37,160 nt of DNA, from positions 1-37,160 of IMG/VR virus record IMGVR_UViG_3300042317_001219, one strand, 5' to 3'. Shown piece by piece: positions 2,996 through 28,275 of the stretch (its first letter is position 1; each line of letters starts with the position of its first letter). The notes under the pieces are model-generated. The model was given only the letters and a program-made list of their open reading frames with translations. It was not told where the DNA came from and did not search any database. Origin of the DNA: a virus. The translations under genes and the position numbers were made by a program.

Positions 2996-4200
2996 AGACT
3001 GTTCCGTTTAGCGACATTCTTGCCGAGGTTTGCCAACTTATCGGGCTAGATCGCTCGACGCTAAACGACAAAAGTTTCAACGCGATCAGGGACTTTGCTA
3101 GTCGGCGCATTGGAACCATTTGGGATCGTGAAGAGTGGCCGGATGCAAACAGGTACATCCGCACATTTCCCGGTAATCCAATCAATGGTCTGACGTTGAT
3201 TCCGTTGTCTGAACTGGAAACTCAGACACAAATTGACCTTCAGACGCAGACTGGAGATCCACTTTGGGTCCAGACTTCCGACAACACCATTGCTCTGAAG
3301 TTGGATTTGGATCCAAACTTTCCCAGGGTGTACACCGCTGATTTTGCTGGAGACGCTTTGCGTAAAGGCATCATTGGCCAAAGCGAGTTAATCTTTAACA
3401 ACCCGTTTTACTACAGCTACAATGGGGAGTTGGTCAGTGTTGCAAACAAGCGGTACACGTTTGCTTACGATTCAGCTACGGATGTTTTGGGACAGTACAT
3501 CACCAGCGTGTACATTCAGATTCCGTTTACTTCGACCGTGACGCTCCCAACATACGAAGGGCCAAACGGCAGGCTGACTACAACTGTGATTTTCTCGGGG
3601 AATCCACAAAGGATCGTGCAAATGCCAACCGGATCCCTGCAAGGGTTGTCTGCATGGGAACAAGATCCTCGGAGCACCACCAGAGCAGTACAGTTGGACT
3701 TCATGGTGGAAGATCTAATCACGGTTCCAAACACCACCAGGACCGTAGACGTGACTTATCTGCGGTTTCTTGAAGACGGAGAAAAGTTCGTTCAGTATCG
3801 ATTGGACGCCCCAAGACTATTTGGCGCACGATACATCGACGGCACAAATTATTTGATTGGGTCGCAGGTGTACTACGACATTCTGCAAGGAAACTCGAAC
3901 TACAATCCGACAGACATCACCAAAGGGGTTCGCGCAAACTTTTGGACGGCTGTTGGAAACTCTGCGTTTGTTGCTCCGCAAGATCCGCCGAATACTTCTT
4001 GGCAGCAAGTGAGCATCCCTTATCGGTTTAAAGACTTTTTGGTGAATGGCGTGACGGCAGACTTTTTGAAGTCTGAAGGCCGAACTGACGAAGGGGTTGT
4101 TTTTGATGGGTTGGCTGAACAAGCGGTCCAACAACAAATTGATGTTTTGATTCGTCAACAGGGCCAGATTCAAAAACTGAACATGGCTTACACTTACTAA
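2992..4200 (+). CDS. Putative head-tail adaptor / tail tubular protein A-like protein
   Basis: A 402-residue protein starting with ATG 2992 inside the end of the previous gene. The N-terminus is helical (DILAEVCQLIGLDRSTLNDK, then a segment with RRIGTIWDREEWP), resembling the helical N-terminal half of podovirus adaptor proteins that bind the portal. The rest is predicted beta-rich, and the C-terminus returns to helix (QQQIDVLIRQQGQIQKLNM). Order after capsid and before tail genes fits an adaptor bridging portal and nozzle. I see no diagnostic catalytic motif; a minor structural protein is the alternative. Confidence 0.5.
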   Translation: MKTVPFSDILAEVCQLIGLDRSTLNDKSFNAIRDFASRRIGTIWDREEWPDANRYIRTFPGNPINGLTLIPLSELETQTQIDLQTQTGDPLWVQTSDNTIALKLDLDPNFPRVYTADFAGDALRKGIIGQSELIFNNPFYYSYNGELVSVANKRYTFAYDSATDVLGQYITSVYIQIPFTSTVTLPTYEGPNGRLTTTVIFSGNPQRIVQMPTGSLQGLSAWEQDPRSTTRAVQLDFMVEDLITVPNTTRTVDVTYLRFLEDGEKFVQYRLDAPRLFGARYIDGTNYLIGSQVYYDILQGNSNYNPTDITKGVRANFWTAVGNSAFVAPQDPPNTSWQQVSIPYRFKDFLVNGVTADFLKSEGRTDEGVVFDGLAEQAVQQQIDVLIRQQGQIQKLNMAYTY

Positions 4201-21631: not shown

Positions 21632-22185
21632 GGCTCATCGTCAAATACCAAAATGGGCACATGTCAGAGCTGTTTGGGGTGTATTCCGCTCTCATGTATC
21701 ACGACGAGGCTGAAACGGCCTCTGGCGGGGCTTCTAACGCTTGCGGTGAGCAGTCCTTGTTTGCATCAATGAACGAAACTGCCCCTTTAATGATGACCGG
21801 AGGGGATGAGCAGAGGGGTGATGGAGTGGGGTTAGGTAAGATAGGGGGTGTGGGGGAAAGAGAGGAAAGGGGCGAGGAAGCGGGGAGAGAGAAGGGGAAC
21901 CCATGCATCTACAAGATGGTCTTTCGGTGCTCCGACGGGGAGACCTTTGCCCCGGTTGCCGTGCTCGATCTCGCGGTTAGCAAATTTGGGGAGCAAAGCA
22001 CTCACGAGGAGTGTGTGAAAGCGGCGCAGTGGCTCATCGCCAACCCCGGAAAGAAACGGAAGAAGAAGGGCCTTGGCACCTTCTTGATGTCATGGTTTGA
22101 CCGGGCGGCCCAGTATCGGGCAGAGCGCAGAAAGATGAACTCAGGAAATTTGCTGAATGAAGAAACTACCGACCAAGCCTGGTGA
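21628..22185 (+). CDS. Hypothetical protein with a purine-encoded low-complexity insert (185 aa)
   Basis: ATG 21628 has a good Shine-Dalgarno sequence (GAGGAGGAG, 21614-21622), unusual in this genome. Residues about 57-91 are a low-complexity Gly/Glu/Arg stretch encoded by an almost pure purine tract with many G runs (21797-21901). The flanks look ordinary: MRLIVKYQNGHMSELF before, and a Cys-containing YKMVFRCSDGETFAPVAVLD after. The C-terminus is basic (GKKRKKKGLG). The last 29 bases overlap the helicase N-part gene. The insert may be a later expansion in a smaller conserved gene. Not recognised. Confidence 0.55.
   Translation: MRLIVKYQNGHMSELFGVYSALMYHDEAETASGGASNACGEQSLFASMNETAPLMMTGGDEQRGDGVGLGKIGGVGEREERGEEAGREKGNPCIYKMVFRCSDGETFAPVAVLDLAVSKFGEQSTHEECVKAAQWLIANPGKKRKKKGLGTFLMSWFDRAAQYRAERRKMNSGNLLNEETTDQAW
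21797..21901 (+). repeat. G-rich purine tract inside a coding region
   Basis: About 105 bases with hardly any C or T and repeated runs of four or five G. Within 21840-21898 are runs GGGGG, GGGGG, GGGG, GGGG with short loops (first loop TGT), enough for a possible G-quadruplex on the + strand. It encodes the low-complexity insert of the overlapping gene. Similar words (AGGGG, GGGGAAC) recur at 31592-31701. Confidence 0.5.
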
Positions 22186-22843
22186 AGACCTGGTTCTACC
22201 GCAAGCCACAGAAGCTGAACGAGGAATAGCGAGCATTGCCCTCAATAATCCTCGAACAGTTCTGAACGTGATCGCTGAAAGAGGCTTTCAACCGGCGGAC
22301 ATCTTCGACCCAGCATCACGTGCAGCCGTTGAGGTTGTGCTCGATCTGAACGCGAAGGGCATCACGCCGGATGCTCGAGTCATCTTCGAGCGGATGCGCG
22401 AGAGGATCCCGGAGATCAGCTTTGCGACATTGACCGATTTGTACACGGTCATGCCGATCGAGTCGGCTTTGCCTGAGTTGCTCGCCATCGTGACTGCAAC
22501 GGCGAAGCGGAGGACGCTGATGGTCGTTCTCCACGAGGCAATGGGGGCCATCCACAAAACGGATCTTCCAACCGTTGAGCTTGTGCAGGATGTAGCCATG
22601 AAGGTGGATGCCATCCAGACCAAGCTTGCCCCTCCCAGACGCATGGATACTCAGTCTCTTTTGCTGGAGGCAGTGCAGCGATACGAGACTGGAGACGACG
22701 AGACTCAGCGAATCCGCACTGGCTACGAGAAGCTCGACAATCTCACACCTATCCGCTACGGCGACTTCGTTGTTGTCGGCGGCGAGACAAAGTCGGGTAA
22801 AACCATGTTCGCCCTTAACATCATTGCAAACTTAATAGCATGA
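22157..22843 (+). CDS. DnaB-type replicative helicase, N-terminal part ending just after Walker A
   Basis: A 228-residue protein. Residues about 15-125 match the DnaB N-terminal helical domain (EAERGIASIALNNPRTVLNV; GFQPADIFDPASRAAVEVVL). After a linker comes the start of the RecA-like motor: RIRTGYEKLDNLTPIRYGDF, then VVVGGETKSGKTMFALNIIA with Walker A GGETKSGKT (208-216). Translation stops 12 residues after Walker A, where a normal DnaB continues for about 200 residues. The missing half is encoded by the separate gene at 24917-25507. On its own this part could bind the nucleotide phosphates but lacks Walker B, so it cannot be a complete ATPase. The stop overlaps the next ATG (ATGA). Confidence 0.8.
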   Translation: MKKLPTKPGEDLVLPQATEAERGIASIALNNPRTVLNVIAERGFQPADIFDPASRAAVEVVLDLNAKGITPDARVIFERMRERIPEISFATLTDLYTVMPIESALPELLAIVTATAKRRTLMVVLHEAMGAIHKTDLPTVELVQDVAMKVDAIQTKLAPPRRMDTQSLLLEAVQRYETGDDETQRIRTGYEKLDNLTPIRYGDFVVVGGETKSGKTMFALNIIANLIA

Positions 22844-23154
22844 AACTTATCAACTTAACACCACACGACATTAAGGTTGGGGACATGGTGATCCCTGCAT
22901 CGGGAGAGATTGCGCGCATGAACGTCAGCACGATGGATGCTGGTCAGATTGAAGGCATTTCGATTGTGGAAACCCGCATCCTTGGCTTCAGTGGAATCCC
23001 TGAGCCCACACCTGGCACGGCCTACATTGTGCCGTCTATGGTCCGGGTACAATTCCCTAAACGTCGTGATCTACTCAGCCCTTCCAAATTTCTTCGAGAC
23101 CGACACGGTTCAATCACCGGTTGTTTGGGATTGGAGATTAACCCCGAACAGTAA
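22840..23154 (+). CDS. Conserved hypothetical protein, NLTPHDI-type (104 aa)
   Basis: ATG 22840 overlaps the helicase N-part stop. The product begins MKLINLTPHDIKVGDMVIPA, followed by an R-(V/I)-type segment, IPEPTPGTAYIVPSMVRVQF, and KRRDLLSPSKFLRDRHGSIT. This 'NLTPH-x-I ... PEP-x-x-GT-x-YIVS ... R-x-DLLSP-x-x-x-RD' pattern belongs to a small family spread in phages and bacteria with no function known to me. It is the first gene inside the interval separating the helicase halves. Confidence 0.65.
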   Translation: MKLINLTPHDIKVGDMVIPASGEIARMNVSTMDAGQIEGISIVETRILGFSGIPEPTPGTAYIVPSMVRVQFPKRRDLLSPSKFLRDRHGSITGCLGLEINPEQ

Positions 23155-23167
23155 GCACCACACCCAC

Positions 23168-23401
23168 ATGAACATTGCACCCATCAGTTCAGTCTACCAA
23201 GTCGCCAGTTACATGCAGTTGCGTCCGCTTGTGAAAGCGGTCGTGGATAGCCTGGATCGCATGCCGAAAACCAGTCTCCCAACGGAGATTCCGGGGACGG
23301 TCCAGTCACATGCCAGAATGCCCGCGGTAACGCTCTACACGCAACACGGTGAAGTCATCCGAAAGTCAGCAGAGAAAGGACATTTAATCGGACACGCATG
23401 A
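23168..23401 (+). CDS. Hypothetical protein (77 aa)
   Basis: ATG 23168 follows the previous stop by 13 bases; a longer in-frame start at 22937 would overlap the whole preceding gene, so I reject it. The protein is basic with no membrane segment (begins MNIAPISSVYQVASYMQLRP). Its stop overlaps the kinase ATG (ATGA at 23398). Not recognised. Confidence 0.55.
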   Translation: MNIAPISSVYQVASYMQLRPLVKAVVDSLDRMPKTSLPTEIPGTVQSHARMPAVTLYTQHGEVIRKSAEKGHLIGHA

Positions 23402-23877
23402 ACACAAAACTTATAGGACTCGTTGGAAACGCGAGGGTTGGGAAGGACACGGCTGCGGAAATCTTCTTCCGTGCCGGGTTTGAACGGGCAGCATTTGCTG
23501 ACCCAATCAAAGCTCTAGCCGTGCAGCATTTCGGCTGGCATGGCGTGAAGGACGAACGGGGGCGCAAGCTCTTGCAGGACTTAGGCATGGCGGGGCGCGA
23601 GTTCGATCCGGAGGTATGGATCCGACACATGCGCTGGAGTAATCCCATCCGCTATGGAAAACCTTGCGTCATCACAGATGTGCGTTTCGAGAACGAAGCA
23701 CAGTGGATTCAGCGTCAAGGAGGCAAGTTGGTCAGAATTATTCGTCCAGACATCCCTGTCATCCAACATGTTAGCGAAACGGAGCAAAAAAAGATTGCGT
23801 GTCACTACGAGATCGTGAACGCTGGAACCGTGCAAGACCTGCACAAGTTGGTCGAAGATCTAATAAACTCACTATAA
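23398..23877 (+). CDS. Deoxynucleoside monophosphate kinase
   Basis: A 159-residue P-loop kinase that probably phosphorylates dNMPs to dNDPs for phage DNA synthesis. It opens with LIGLVGNARVGKDTAAEIFF, whose G-x4-GKDT (10-18) is the dNMP-kinase form of Walker A. RAAFADPIKALA and CVITDVRFENEAQWI follow; the 'D-V-R-F-x-N-E-A' segment and 'HVSE' (about 123-126) are family hallmarks of phage dNMP kinases such as T4 gp1-like enzymes. It lies between the helicase halves. The cofactor site is visible; substrate range is not. Confidence 0.8.
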   Translation: MNTKLIGLVGNARVGKDTAAEIFFRAGFERAAFADPIKALAVQHFGWHGVKDERGRKLLQDLGMAGREFDPEVWIRHMRWSNPIRYGKPCVITDVRFENEAQWIQRQGGKLVRIIRPDIPVIQHVSETEQKKIACHYEIVNAGTVQDLHKLVEDLINSL

Positions 23878-23882
23878 TTACT

Positions 23883-24707
23883 ATGACGGACTTCATACTT
23901 CACAATGCAGAGATGCAGGACTACCGGGCCATGCCCGGATTATCAAAACACCAGTTCGACTGGTTTATGCAGGATCCGGCTTATTTCGCGTGGAGGCGCA
24001 CGCAAGACTTTAAGCCCAGCCGGGACATGGTCCTCGGCACACTCATTCACGCTCAGACGCTAGAGGGGCGCATTGACTACGCTGTCGGTCCCCAGGTTGA
24101 CCGCAGGACAAAGATCGGAAAGGAAACATGGGAGGCTTTCTGCCATGAAAATATTGGCAAAGAGGTTGTGAATGAGGAGGAGGCGCGCAGGATCGAAGGG
24201 TCAGTCCTGACGGCAGAGGTGTTGTTGTCTGAATTGGGCTACAACAAAAAAGAAGACCAGAGCAAACTCTGGGTGGAGCCCTCAATGTTTTGGGAGGATG
24301 ACCGGTTTGAAGGTGCCCAATTCAAAGGGCGGCCAGATCTAATAATCCCTCCGGGGGCGAATGACCCGGATGGCGTGTGGACGGTTGTGGACATCAAGAC
24401 CACCAGTGATTTCTTCAAGTTCACCTCCAAGTTTTGGAGCTTTCATTACGACCGGCAGGCAGTCTGGTATCAGTGGGGATTGAGACAACTCGGCAAAGAA
24501 AACACCCGGTTTATCTTTGCGGTGGTGGACACTGAGGAACCGCACCTCGGGCAACTCATGCAACTCGATCCGCTGGCGGAGAAGTTCGCTTGGGACGTGA
24601 TCCGGCCCAGCTTGTTCCACTATGCTTTGTGCCACAAAAACAACGAGTGGCCGGGACCTCGGGGGATCAGGATGCTCAATCGTCATGGGCTGGGTGCTTT
24701 TACGTAA
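23883..24707 (+). CDS. PD-(D/E)XK exonuclease, RecE/YqaJ-like (DUF3799 type)
   Basis: A 274-residue nuclease. LSKHQFDWFMQDPAYFAWRR near the N-terminus is the usual opening of this group; LGTLIHAQTLEG (51-62) carries the conserved His; RPDLI (140-144) supplies Asp142; VVDIKTT (158-164) gives the D-x-K pair Asp160 and Lys162; RQAVWYQ (181-187) is the downstream Q-x3-Y motif. These make a complete PD-(D/E)XK site for resecting DNA ends in recombination. It probably works with the OB-fold protein and resolvase. A TATAAT at 23873-23878 upstream is not clearly paired with a -35 box. Confidence 0.75.
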   Translation: MTDFILHNAEMQDYRAMPGLSKHQFDWFMQDPAYFAWRRTQDFKPSRDMVLGTLIHAQTLEGRIDYAVGPQVDRRTKIGKETWEAFCHENIGKEVVNEEEARRIEGSVLTAEVLLSELGYNKKEDQSKLWVEPSMFWEDDRFEGAQFKGRPDLIIPPGANDPDGVWTVVDIKTTSDFFKFTSKFWSFHYDRQAVWYQWGLRQLGKENTRFIFAVVDTEEPHLGQLMQLDPLAEKFAWDVIRPSLFHYALCHKNNEWPGPRGIRMLNRHGLGAFT

Positions 24708-24972
24708 GTCAACGGTCGAAGATCACGTTCGCAATCTGCCTCGTCCGCGCATCGTTCAGACGGTGTTGCGGCGGGGCACGCGGAAGGAGTGTTCAGAACT
24801 GCTGGAGCAGATTGTGCATCTGCCCGAACACCAAAGCTCTGATCAAATCCGCGTTGTGCTCGAGATCATCATCGACCGCAAACAAAAGGACTACACATCG
24901 AGAGAGATTCACAAGAATGAAAAAAGGCATACTCATCATCTCGCTAGAGATGCCAGCGAGTCAGATCATTGA
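24685..24972 (+). CDS. Hypothetical protein bridging nuclease and helicase C-part (95 aa)
   Basis: ATG 24685 overlaps the nuclease end by 23 bases, and the frame runs 56 bases into the helicase C-part gene. The first ~75 residues look protein-like and charged (KSTVEDHVRNLPRPRIVQTV; CSELLEQIVHLPEHQSS; IRVVLEIIIDRKQ). The last ~18 are dictated by the overlapping helicase frame. Without it 209 bases would be empty. It might be residual helicase-linked or regulatory sequence. Moderate evidence only. Confidence 0.45.
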   Translation: MGWVLLRKSTVEDHVRNLPRPRIVQTVLRRGTRKECSELLEQIVHLPEHQSSDQIRVVLEIIIDRKQKDYTSREIHKNEKRHTHHLARDASESDH

Positions 24973-25507
24973 CCGGTTGGTGGCCAAGCTGGGGAACGTG
25001 CGGCTACGCACCCTGGCAGAGGGAGTAAAGACACCTGTGGACATGACTGCTGTTGCTAGGGCAACACAGGTGATTGCCAGCTCCAAGCTGGTCATCCGGG
25101 ATGACCTGCATGACATCGGGGCCATTGTGGCGACCGCTCGCGCCATGGCCAAATCCCCGGATGGGTTGGGCGTGTTGCTGGTGGACTACATCCAGCTTGT
25201 GCGGTGTGACCTGGGGCGCGAATCCACTCGTGAGCGTGAGGTGGCAGAGGTCTCCCGTGCGCTGCGCCTGATCGGCTTAGAGCTGGGCTGCCTAGTGATC
25301 GGGATCACCCAGCTTAACGAGCAGGGAAAGGCTCGGGAATCGCGTGCAATCCAGCAGGATGCCACCTGCATCATGGCGATCAAGATCCACGAAGAGGAAG
25401 GGAGCGAGATCCGTAAAATCTCGATTCCCTTCCAGCGGAATGGTCCGTGTGGAGTGGGAACGGAGCTTCGTTTCAACGGTAAAACAGCATCTTTTGTGAA
25501 CCCATGA
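24917..25507 (+). CDS. DnaB-type replicative helicase, C-terminal part (Walker B to arginine finger)
   Basis: A 196-residue protein beginning exactly where the N-part stops in the family order: KKGILIISLEM (2-12, with the catalytic Glu11 of the strand after Walker A), LLVDYIQLV (87-95, Walker B Asp90), VIGITQLNEQ (127-136, sensor Gln132), ESRAIQQDA (141-149) and FQRNGPCG (172-179, arginine-finger Arg174). It lacks any Walker A, so it needs the product of 22157-22843. I chose ATG 24917; the open frame extends upstream to 24590 but there overlaps the nuclease and shows no DnaB resemblance. Both halves are in the same reading phase of the genome. Confidence 0.8.
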   Translation: MKKGILIISLEMPASQIIDRLVAKLGNVRLRTLAEGVKTPVDMTAVARATQVIASSKLVIRDDLHDIGAIVATARAMAKSPDGLGVLLVDYIQLVRCDLGRESTREREVAEVSRALRLIGLELGCLVIGITQLNEQGKARESRAIQQDATCIMAIKIHEEEGSEIRKISIPFQRNGPCGVGTELRFNGKTASFVNP

Positions 25508-27211: not shown

Positions 27212-27362
27212 CTTGGCCTACCAAGGCGGTCCGTTGTTAATTTTGCAAAGGCAAGCCGCAGACATGCGGGCTCGCGGGACCCTGTACGCTGACATGGTTA
27301 AACACTTTGGTGTTTCACGAGAGACGCTCCGGAAGTGGGTTAAACGAGCGCAAAAACGATAA
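27198..27362 (+). CDS. Short helix-turn-helix protein (54 aa)
   Basis: ATG 27198 to TAA 27360-27362. The C-terminal half ADMVKHFGVSRETLRKWVKR is a textbook HTH (helix, GVS turn, recognition helix ETLRKWVKRA). It ends in a compact junction, TAATGTGG, where its stop overlaps ATG 27362 of one frame and is followed at 27364 by the GTG of the methyltransferase frame. It may regulate the methyltransferase or the convergent block. Confidence 0.65.
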   Translation: MHRSSLAYQGGPLLILQRQAADMRARGTLYADMVKHFGVSRETLRKWVKRAQKR

Positions 27363-28249
27363 TGTGGATACTACCCAAACAATTACGCACATCTCTTTGT
27401 GCAGCGGATACGGAGGCATTGACCTCGGACTCCGCCGCTGCATCCCAGGCTTGCGCACAATCGCTTATAGTGAGATCGAAGCCGCAGCGTGCGAACTACT
27501 TCTTGCGCGCATGGAAGGCGGGCAACTTGACCCGGCTCCGATCTGGACTGATCTCAAGTCCTTTCCTTGGGGGGCTTTTCACGGCAAAGTGGACATCGTC
27601 TCTGGCGGATATCCCTGCCAGCCTTTCAGCGCAGCCGGAAAGCGAGCCGGAAAAGACGATCCTCGGCACCTCTGGCCTTGGATCGCAGATGGAATTGCTG
27701 CCATGCAGCCCCGACTCTGTTTCTTTAAAAACGTCGAAGGGCACATTTCGTTGGGACTCTCCACAGTCGTTAGCGATTTGGAAGAGCTGGGTTATCGAGC
27801 GGCGTGGGGACTATTCTCGGCGAGCGAAGTTGGCGCGCCACACCAGCGGAAGCGGGTGTTTATCCTGGCCTACCGCAATGGCACGCGACTGGAAGGGAAC
27901 ATCACCGAATGCGCACGTCAGAAAAACCGGTGTGAGCCGGTGCGATCAACTGCCCGTTGCAGTGGATCAGGCGGAGAAAGGGATGTGGCCAACACCATGT
28001 GCGATGGAAGCGGAAAAAGCGGGTTTGTTCAGCAAAGGGCAGATGGGCCAGAGTCTGTCAGCGATGGCAAATCGAGGCGAACTTGGCCTAGCCGCCCCGG
28101 CGAACCTCAACACGAATGGGAGCCGCTGCGGGCTGTTGAACCCGGATTGGGTCGAAACACTAATGGGATTACCAGTAGGGTGGACAGACTCCGCATGCTT
28201 GGCAACGGAGTCGTGCCAGCAACTGCCGAAAGAGCATTTCAAATTCTAA
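27362..28249 (+). CDS. Second open frame overlapping the methyltransferase (295 aa); possible overprinted gene
   Basis: The frame opens with ATG 27362, overlapping the previous TAA, and stays open for 295 codons across the methyltransferase gene in the +1 frame. Its product carries LKTSKGTFRWDSPQSLAIW, then SGSGCLSWPTAMARDWKGT, MWPTPCAMEAEKAG and LLNPDWVETLMGLPVGWT. I associate this W-P-T-x-x-A-x-D-W-K ... LNP-x-W-V-E-x-L-M-G-x-P-x-GWT set with proteins often deposited from phages. Either it is a genuine dual-coding gene or the same second frame is repeatedly left open by codon bias in the methyltransferase. No enzymatic motif is apparent. Confidence 0.4.
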   Translation: MWILPKQLRTSLCAADTEALTSDSAAASQACAQSLIVRSKPQRANYFLRAWKAGNLTRLRSGLISSPFLGGLFTAKWTSSLADIPASLSAQPESEPEKTILGTSGLGSQMELLPCSPDSVSLKTSKGTFRWDSPQSLAIWKSWVIERRGDYSRRAKLARHTSGSGCLSWPTAMARDWKGTSPNAHVRKTGVSRCDQLPVAVDQAEKGMWPTPCAMEAEKAGLFSKGQMGQSLSAMANRGELGLAAPANLNTNGSRCGLLNPDWVETLMGLPVGWTDSACLATESCQQLPKEHFKF

Positions 28250-28275
28250 TTTCGGAATTGCAAAATCAAAATTGA
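27364..28275 (+). CDS. DNA cytosine-C5 methyltransferase with altered motif VI
   Basis: From GTG 27364 a 303-residue protein carries the C5-methyltransferase motifs in order: I (SLCSGYGGIDLGL, 11-23, S-adenosylmethionine site), IV (GGYPCQPFSAAGKR, nucleophile Cys85), VI (FFKNVEGH, where the usual ENV has become KNV, Lys122), VIII (APHQRKRVFIL, 148-158) and X (RMLGNGVVPAT near the end). Motif VI glutamate normally activates the cytosine ring, so activity is doubtful. An upstream TTG (27307) in frame would overlap the HTH gene; GTG 27364 directly precedes the domain. It would mark phage DNA against restriction if active. No partner restriction enzyme is present. Confidence 0.8.
   Translation: MDTTQTITHISLCSGYGGIDLGLRRCIPGLRTIAYSEIEAAACELLLARMEGGQLDPAPIWTDLKSFPWGAFHGKVDIVSGGYPCQPFSAAGKRAGKDDPRHLWPWIADGIAAMQPRLCFFKNVEGHISLGLSTVVSDLEELGYRAAWGLFSASEVGAPHQRKRVFILAYRNGTRLEGNITECARQKNRCEPVRSTARCSGSGGERDVANTMCDGSGKSGFVQQRADGPESVSDGKSRRTWPSRPGEPQHEWEPLRAVEPGLGRNTNGITSRVDRLRMLGNGVVPATAERAFQILISELQNQN

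Follow-up and report, generated by a model that had tools for sequence, protein, structure and literature searches.

Enzymes encoded in two pieces

Among T4-like phages, the genes-in-pieces enzymes (Aeh1 NrdA, the gp43A/B of phages 25 and 44RR and the T4 topoisomerase) are conserved enzymes encoded by two open reading frames (ORFs), a state tied to homing endonucleases or to an intercistronic insert. Aeh1 NrdA and phage 25 gp43A/B have been reported to be active as two-part enzymes (PMC2988022). The locus studied here belongs to the IMG/VR virus record IMGVR_UViG_3300042317_001219 (positions 1 to 37,160; this whole stretch of 37,160 nucleotides is called the window) and likewise carries a conserved enzyme gene in two ORFs, in this case a DnaB-type helicase. 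It resembles the genes-in-pieces enzymes, yet what is bisected is the RecA-type P-loop ATPase of a replicative motor, the cut is fixed across a whole, large clade of uncultured phages, several ordinary phage genes occupy the gap and no homing endonuclease was detected in the gap of the window.

Other described systems share some of these features. The DnaB helicases of superfamily 4 (SF4), including phage DnaBs with a shortened loop, have the same domain order, motifs and fold, and the short-loop phage DnaBs share the loop as well, but the helicase of the window consists of two chains instead of one and has lost its Lys finger. In the Rad50/SMC ATPases, distant segments carrying Walker A and Walker B come together in a single ATPase, which N and C segments of Rad50 reconstitute when expressed separately; the heads there are of the ABC type and are joined in nature by a coiled coil, whereas here a RecA-fold ring helicase is encoded by separate genes. 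Fractured genes, broken in two with other genes in between, are known with split inteins (Dassa et al. 2009, as cited in PMC12350094); no intein halves are present here, and therefore the two helicase chains would not be ligated. The minimal DNA polymerase III core of jumbo phages is also a phage replication enzyme made of two standalone proteins, the reconstitution of which was inferred (PMC7824862), although it is a polymerase and not a helicase. The searchable open-access literature yielded no earlier account of an intein-free split DnaB and, to our knowledge, a two-chain replicative helicase with a bisected ATPase domain has not been described previously.

The two helicase ORFs are separated by about 2.07 kb filled with other genes. 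The domain assignments come from Pfam, PHROG and AlphaFold2 (AF2) for the N half, and from Pfam and AF2 for the C half:

22157..22843, + strand: N half, with the DnaB N-terminal collar domain, the linker, Walker A (GGETKSGKT) and its helix
24917..25507, + strand: C half, with the remaining RecA-like core, including the SLEM Glu, Walker B (VDYIQL), the sensor (ITQLN), the RES..QQD motif and the arginine finger (QRNGP)

The N half (228 amino acids) ends 12 residues after GGETKSGKT and its TGA stop overlaps the ATG of the next gene; the C half (196 amino acids) has its own ATG and begins M-KKGILIISLEM. An earlier note, made from the DNA letters of the window, had proposed a DnaB-type helicase divided into two genes at the boundary between Walker A and the strand of the catalytic glutamate. 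The ORF coordinates were confirmed, and the proposal is borne out by matches to known families and structures as well as by 73 related loci. The profile search that the note suggested shows both halves matching DnaB families over complementary parts. The N half matches the DnaB N domain of Pfam (2.9e-5) and positions 2-43 of DnaB_C, and the C half matches positions 49-255 of the latter (2.4e-29); similarly, phrog_19 is covered from 156 to 377 by the N half (2.6e-20) and from 381 to 580 by the C half. Against DnaB chains of the PDB, some 6 chain residues fall between the aligned ends, and the two tails supply about 5. Once the halves are joined, the spacing from GKT to SLEM is 20 residues, as in 19 of the 22 measurable contiguous homologues (21 in the other 3). 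This coverage and spacing agree with the claim that nothing of the core is missing. The DnaB/SF4 signature is complete only over both halves, with Walker A on the N half and the catalytic Glu (SLEM), Walker B, sensor Gln and Arg finger on the C half, so that neither of them carries the full active site by itself; the earlier note had held that neither can be an ATPase alone.

Each half was modelled singly with AF2, and both models match solved DnaB structures by Foldseek, the N-terminal collar domain and the RecA-like core fold being present. The N-half model resembles the DnaB N domain 2r5u (template modelling score on the target, TMt, 0.77-0.83 over about 143 columns) and the C-half model matches DnaB in the PDB with E 6e-13 and a score on the query (TMq) of about 0.83. 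In these models, the break falls after the Walker A helix and before the next strand.

Conservation and origin of the split

The distribution of the split was studied by pattern scans of IMG/VR, which recovered 123 C-half relatives and 117 N-half relatives; 73 distinct loci had both halves. In all 73, which come from many metagenomes, the halves are separate, in the same order and 1.3-3.8 kb apart; none is contiguous, and the cut always follows the Walker A helix and precedes the SLEM strand. The single-polypeptide core usual for DnaB/SF4 is thus replaced by two ORFs throughout. Identity between members of the clade falls to 40% (N half) and 64% (C half), while the G, K, S, G, K and T of Walker A and the SLEM motif are invariant in the 73 loci, as are the Walker B Asp, the sensor Gln and the Arg finger in all their readable sequences. 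The median ratio of nonsynonymous to synonymous substitution rates (dN/dS) is 0.054 for the N half and 0.040 for the C half: both are under strong purifying selection. The distance matrices of the halves are highly correlated (r = 0.98), a value that linkage alone would also make high. Monophyly of the split clade is fully supported, both in the C-half tree and in the tree of the joined halves (100/100). The split is a fixed, ancient state within this clade. One related contig was placed in a metagenome-assembled genome (MAG) of Pedosphaera (Verrucomicrobiota). A DNA-level search of phage records gave no match, and the hits of a scan for the pattern KTM..SLEM were all contiguous DnaBs, either unrelated or distant.

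The DnaB gene is in one piece, and its GKT-to-SLEM spacing is again 20, in phages that have portal (55% identity), major capsid protein (53%), terminase (40-51%) or RusA (56-57%) genes in common with the window. Two ORFs jointly cover the whole enzyme where relatives have a single one. Since these related phages keep an uninterrupted gene with the same spacing, the split is most simply read from the sequences as a derived gene fission without loss of core residues. In L392, one of the phages with a contiguous DnaB, the exonuclease is elsewhere in the replication region. The split clade and several contiguous phage DnaBs (L402, L332, L286 and others) also have in common a short QLN..RES loop (QLN..RESRAI), 11 residues below that of bacterial DnaB. 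In the C-half tree, the split clade has as its sister L286, a contiguous short-loop DnaB from a phylum search around the Pedosphaera MAG; this grouping was lost in the tree of both halves with more relatives, where long branches meet and no single sister of the split clade emerges, and for this reason no parent gene is named. A search with L286 returned no viral kin, while the short-loop pattern did find some.

Some further DnaB sequences were observed in the course of these searches. The contig L389 is an inverted duplication with an otherwise contiguous short-loop DnaB that bears a TAG at 2999-3001, after the Walker A helix and near the position at which the split clade is cut; the stop and the duplication are probably an assembly artefact. 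The window halves match two families of unknown function, phrog_23150 (217 positions), which resembles the N part of DnaB and ends at Walker A, and phrog_11530 (184 positions), which resembles the C part. These families may include more DnaB fragments from known phages; when they were followed to Bromden, CheeseTouch, a Helicobacter prophage and a Vibrio phage, the helicase was contiguous in all of them. Around 8000-9400 of L192, a 103-kb viral contig, C-type and then N-type DnaB matches follow each other on the same strand, which suggests two tandem DnaB-like genes.

Two chains and the rival explanations

Several scenarios may explain a helicase in two ORFs. A self-splicing intron (group I, group II or trans-spliced) could carry the gap genes and excise them from the mRNA, restoring one helicase chain. 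A gene-carrying intron can indeed interrupt an ATPase gene, as in the UL15 terminase of herpesviruses, and the strict conservation of the split site would be in line with it. Nevertheless, the gap varies in length (1.3-3.8 kb) and gene content, and in 23 loci only 0-51 non-coding bases separate the halves, which leaves no room for a ribozyme core. Neither the window nor any of 15 related loci matched an Rfam intron. The N half ends in TAA or TGA. All 73 C halves open with ATG, and an in-frame stop lies at most 20 codons upstream of it in 57 loci and directly adjoins it in 18; a 3' exon would need neither the ATG nor such a stop. The intron is disfavored because of this scarcity of non-coding space in many loci, the lack of an Rfam match, the invariant ATG and the upstream in-frame stops, and it appears very improbable. 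The earlier note had observed that both halves are in the same genomic phase; this is true of the window, but the length of the gap modulo 3 is 0, 2 and 1 in 34, 23 and 16 of the 73 loci, so the shared phase is a coincidence without weight.

Protein trans-splicing by a split intein would ligate both chains after translation, as is known for fractured genes (Dassa et al. 2009). However, the N half ends 11-16 residues past GKT in 68/73 loci (37 at most) and the C half opens directly at the SLEM strand; only short tails, and no intein-sized sequence, are present at either edge of the break. The earlier note likewise saw no intein motifs at either edge, and an intein reading, for which there is next to no probability left, was rejected. 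An assembly artefact or a recent pseudogene is equally negligible. Observations on single contigs can mislead, and the inverted duplication of L389 with its stop in dnaB is an example, but here the arrangement recurs across many metagenomes, in 73 loci whose gap genes differ, and a dN/dS far below 1 together with invariant catalytic residues speaks against decayed halves. Both readings were rejected on these comparative data. Alternatively, the halves could no longer form a helicase, each having become an adaptor or inhibitor that acts, for instance, on the host DnaB. The lack of a full active site on either half and the loss of the Lys finger are compatible with this. Yet residues that have a use only when ATP is hydrolyzed jointly are invariant on both chains down to 40% (N) and 64% (C) identity, and no replacement replicative helicase was found among the families listed for complete genomes, so that this scenario seems improbable, if somewhat less so than the intron.

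The possibility of a separate complete helicase, which the earlier note counted against its own proposal, was addressed in 35 viral records. A search with DnaB_C found exactly two pieces per record and no third. Three of these records bear exact terminal repeats of 123-127 bp and were taken as complete. One of them has SU10-like genes for capsid and portal; among its full list of Pfam families and the best 25 of its 43 PHROG families, there was neither a polymerase nor a primase nor a further replicative helicase.

Among the three options raised in the earlier note, two chains acting in trans are thus strongly favored over a gene-carrying intron, and the shuffling of a module into the gene is kept as a possible origin only, in that it may describe how the split arose. 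It is very likely that the replicative helicase gene underwent fission and that two separately translated chains fold into one DnaB-like protomer, six pairs of which make up the unwinding ring. The N chain would bring the collar domain, the first core strand, the P-loop and helix A, and the C chain the catalytic Glu, Walker B, the sensor and the arginine finger. Judging from the known RecA topology, the chains would co-fold, the P-loop strand of the N chain entering the sheet of the C chain, and six protomers would form a ring that unwinds the phage DNA. We infer in this manner that the chains of the split helicase bind each other, hydrolyze ATP, assemble into hexamers and unwind DNA.

Some points weigh against this two-chain helicase. 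The trans-acting finger of DnaB is a Lys/Arg pair (PMC8421360), and the Lys of its KxR motif is replaced by Ile, Phe, Tyr or Trp throughout the split clade, while the contiguous homologues retain it where the motif is readable. From these substitutions, catalysis may be altered; it would proceed across the subunit interface via the Arg finger alone. The single-half AF2 models are of modest confidence (mean predicted local distance difference test, pLDDT, 76 for N and 79 for C), and the binding of one chain to the other is presumed. A more specific version, which should be regarded as tentative, is that of a natural two-chain ring helicase with each ATP site built from a split RecA domain, in which the split and the loss of the Lys finger would be functional and the joining of N and C would control ring assembly, opening or activity.

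Replicative helicases are essential ring motors that have been studied intensively, and each solved DnaB structure matched here is a single chain. A bisected P-loop ATPase kept through deep divergence would show that this motor domain can assemble naturally from two chains, and genes in pieces, a matter of a few T4-like enzymes, would gain a case that is fixed throughout a clade. The split helicase would also be a ready-made system for the study of ring assembly and the engineering of switchable helicases.

Genes between the halves and overlapping ORFs

Of the gap content given in the earlier note, a conserved small gene, a deoxynucleoside monophosphate (dNMP) kinase, a PD-(D/E)XK nuclease and a further ORF were recovered by Pfam, PHROG and ORF calls:

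22840..23154, + strand: F2, conserved small gene of unknown function; its ATG overlaps the N-half stop (phrog_30542, 3e-15; recurs in relatives)
23398..23877, + strand: dNMP kinase (phrog_139, 2.5e-38; Pfam DNMK, 2.3e-11)
23883..24707, + strand: PD-(D/E)XK exonuclease VIII-like gene (phrog_412, 7.6e-40; DUF3799, 5e-12)
24685..24972, + strand: F1, small ORF, the tail of which overlaps the C-half start (ORF call; similarly placed ORFs in relatives, no family match)

The exonuclease VIII-like gene sits between the halves in essentially every relative (family F0, 73 gap ORFs) and the dNMP kinase is often present; in some relatives, a C5 methyltransferase or Mom-type modification gene precedes the C half. 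No homing endonuclease was found among the scanned gap genes of the window or in the complete genome G005, although the scan did not extend to every gap ORF of the relatives. Since the main gap genes are on the same strand as both halves, they are likely co-transcribed with them. Genes of the Mom family (PF25680) or C5 methyltransferases were seen directly 5' of the C half at L025:2202-2888, L063:7315-8004, L119:9137-10360 and L144:4452-5966, and the gap looks like an insertion site for DNA-modification genes.

Elsewhere in the window, a C5 cytosine methyltransferase ORF (27307-28275, + strand; phrog_363, 6e-63) overlaps almost entirely with a 295-amino-acid ORF in another frame (27362-28249, + strand), which has its own homology to a family of phage proteins (phrog_1008, 1e-23). 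The two look like a dual-coding overlapping pair, and in Paenibacillus phage records two methyltransferase features are annotated under the same kind of match.
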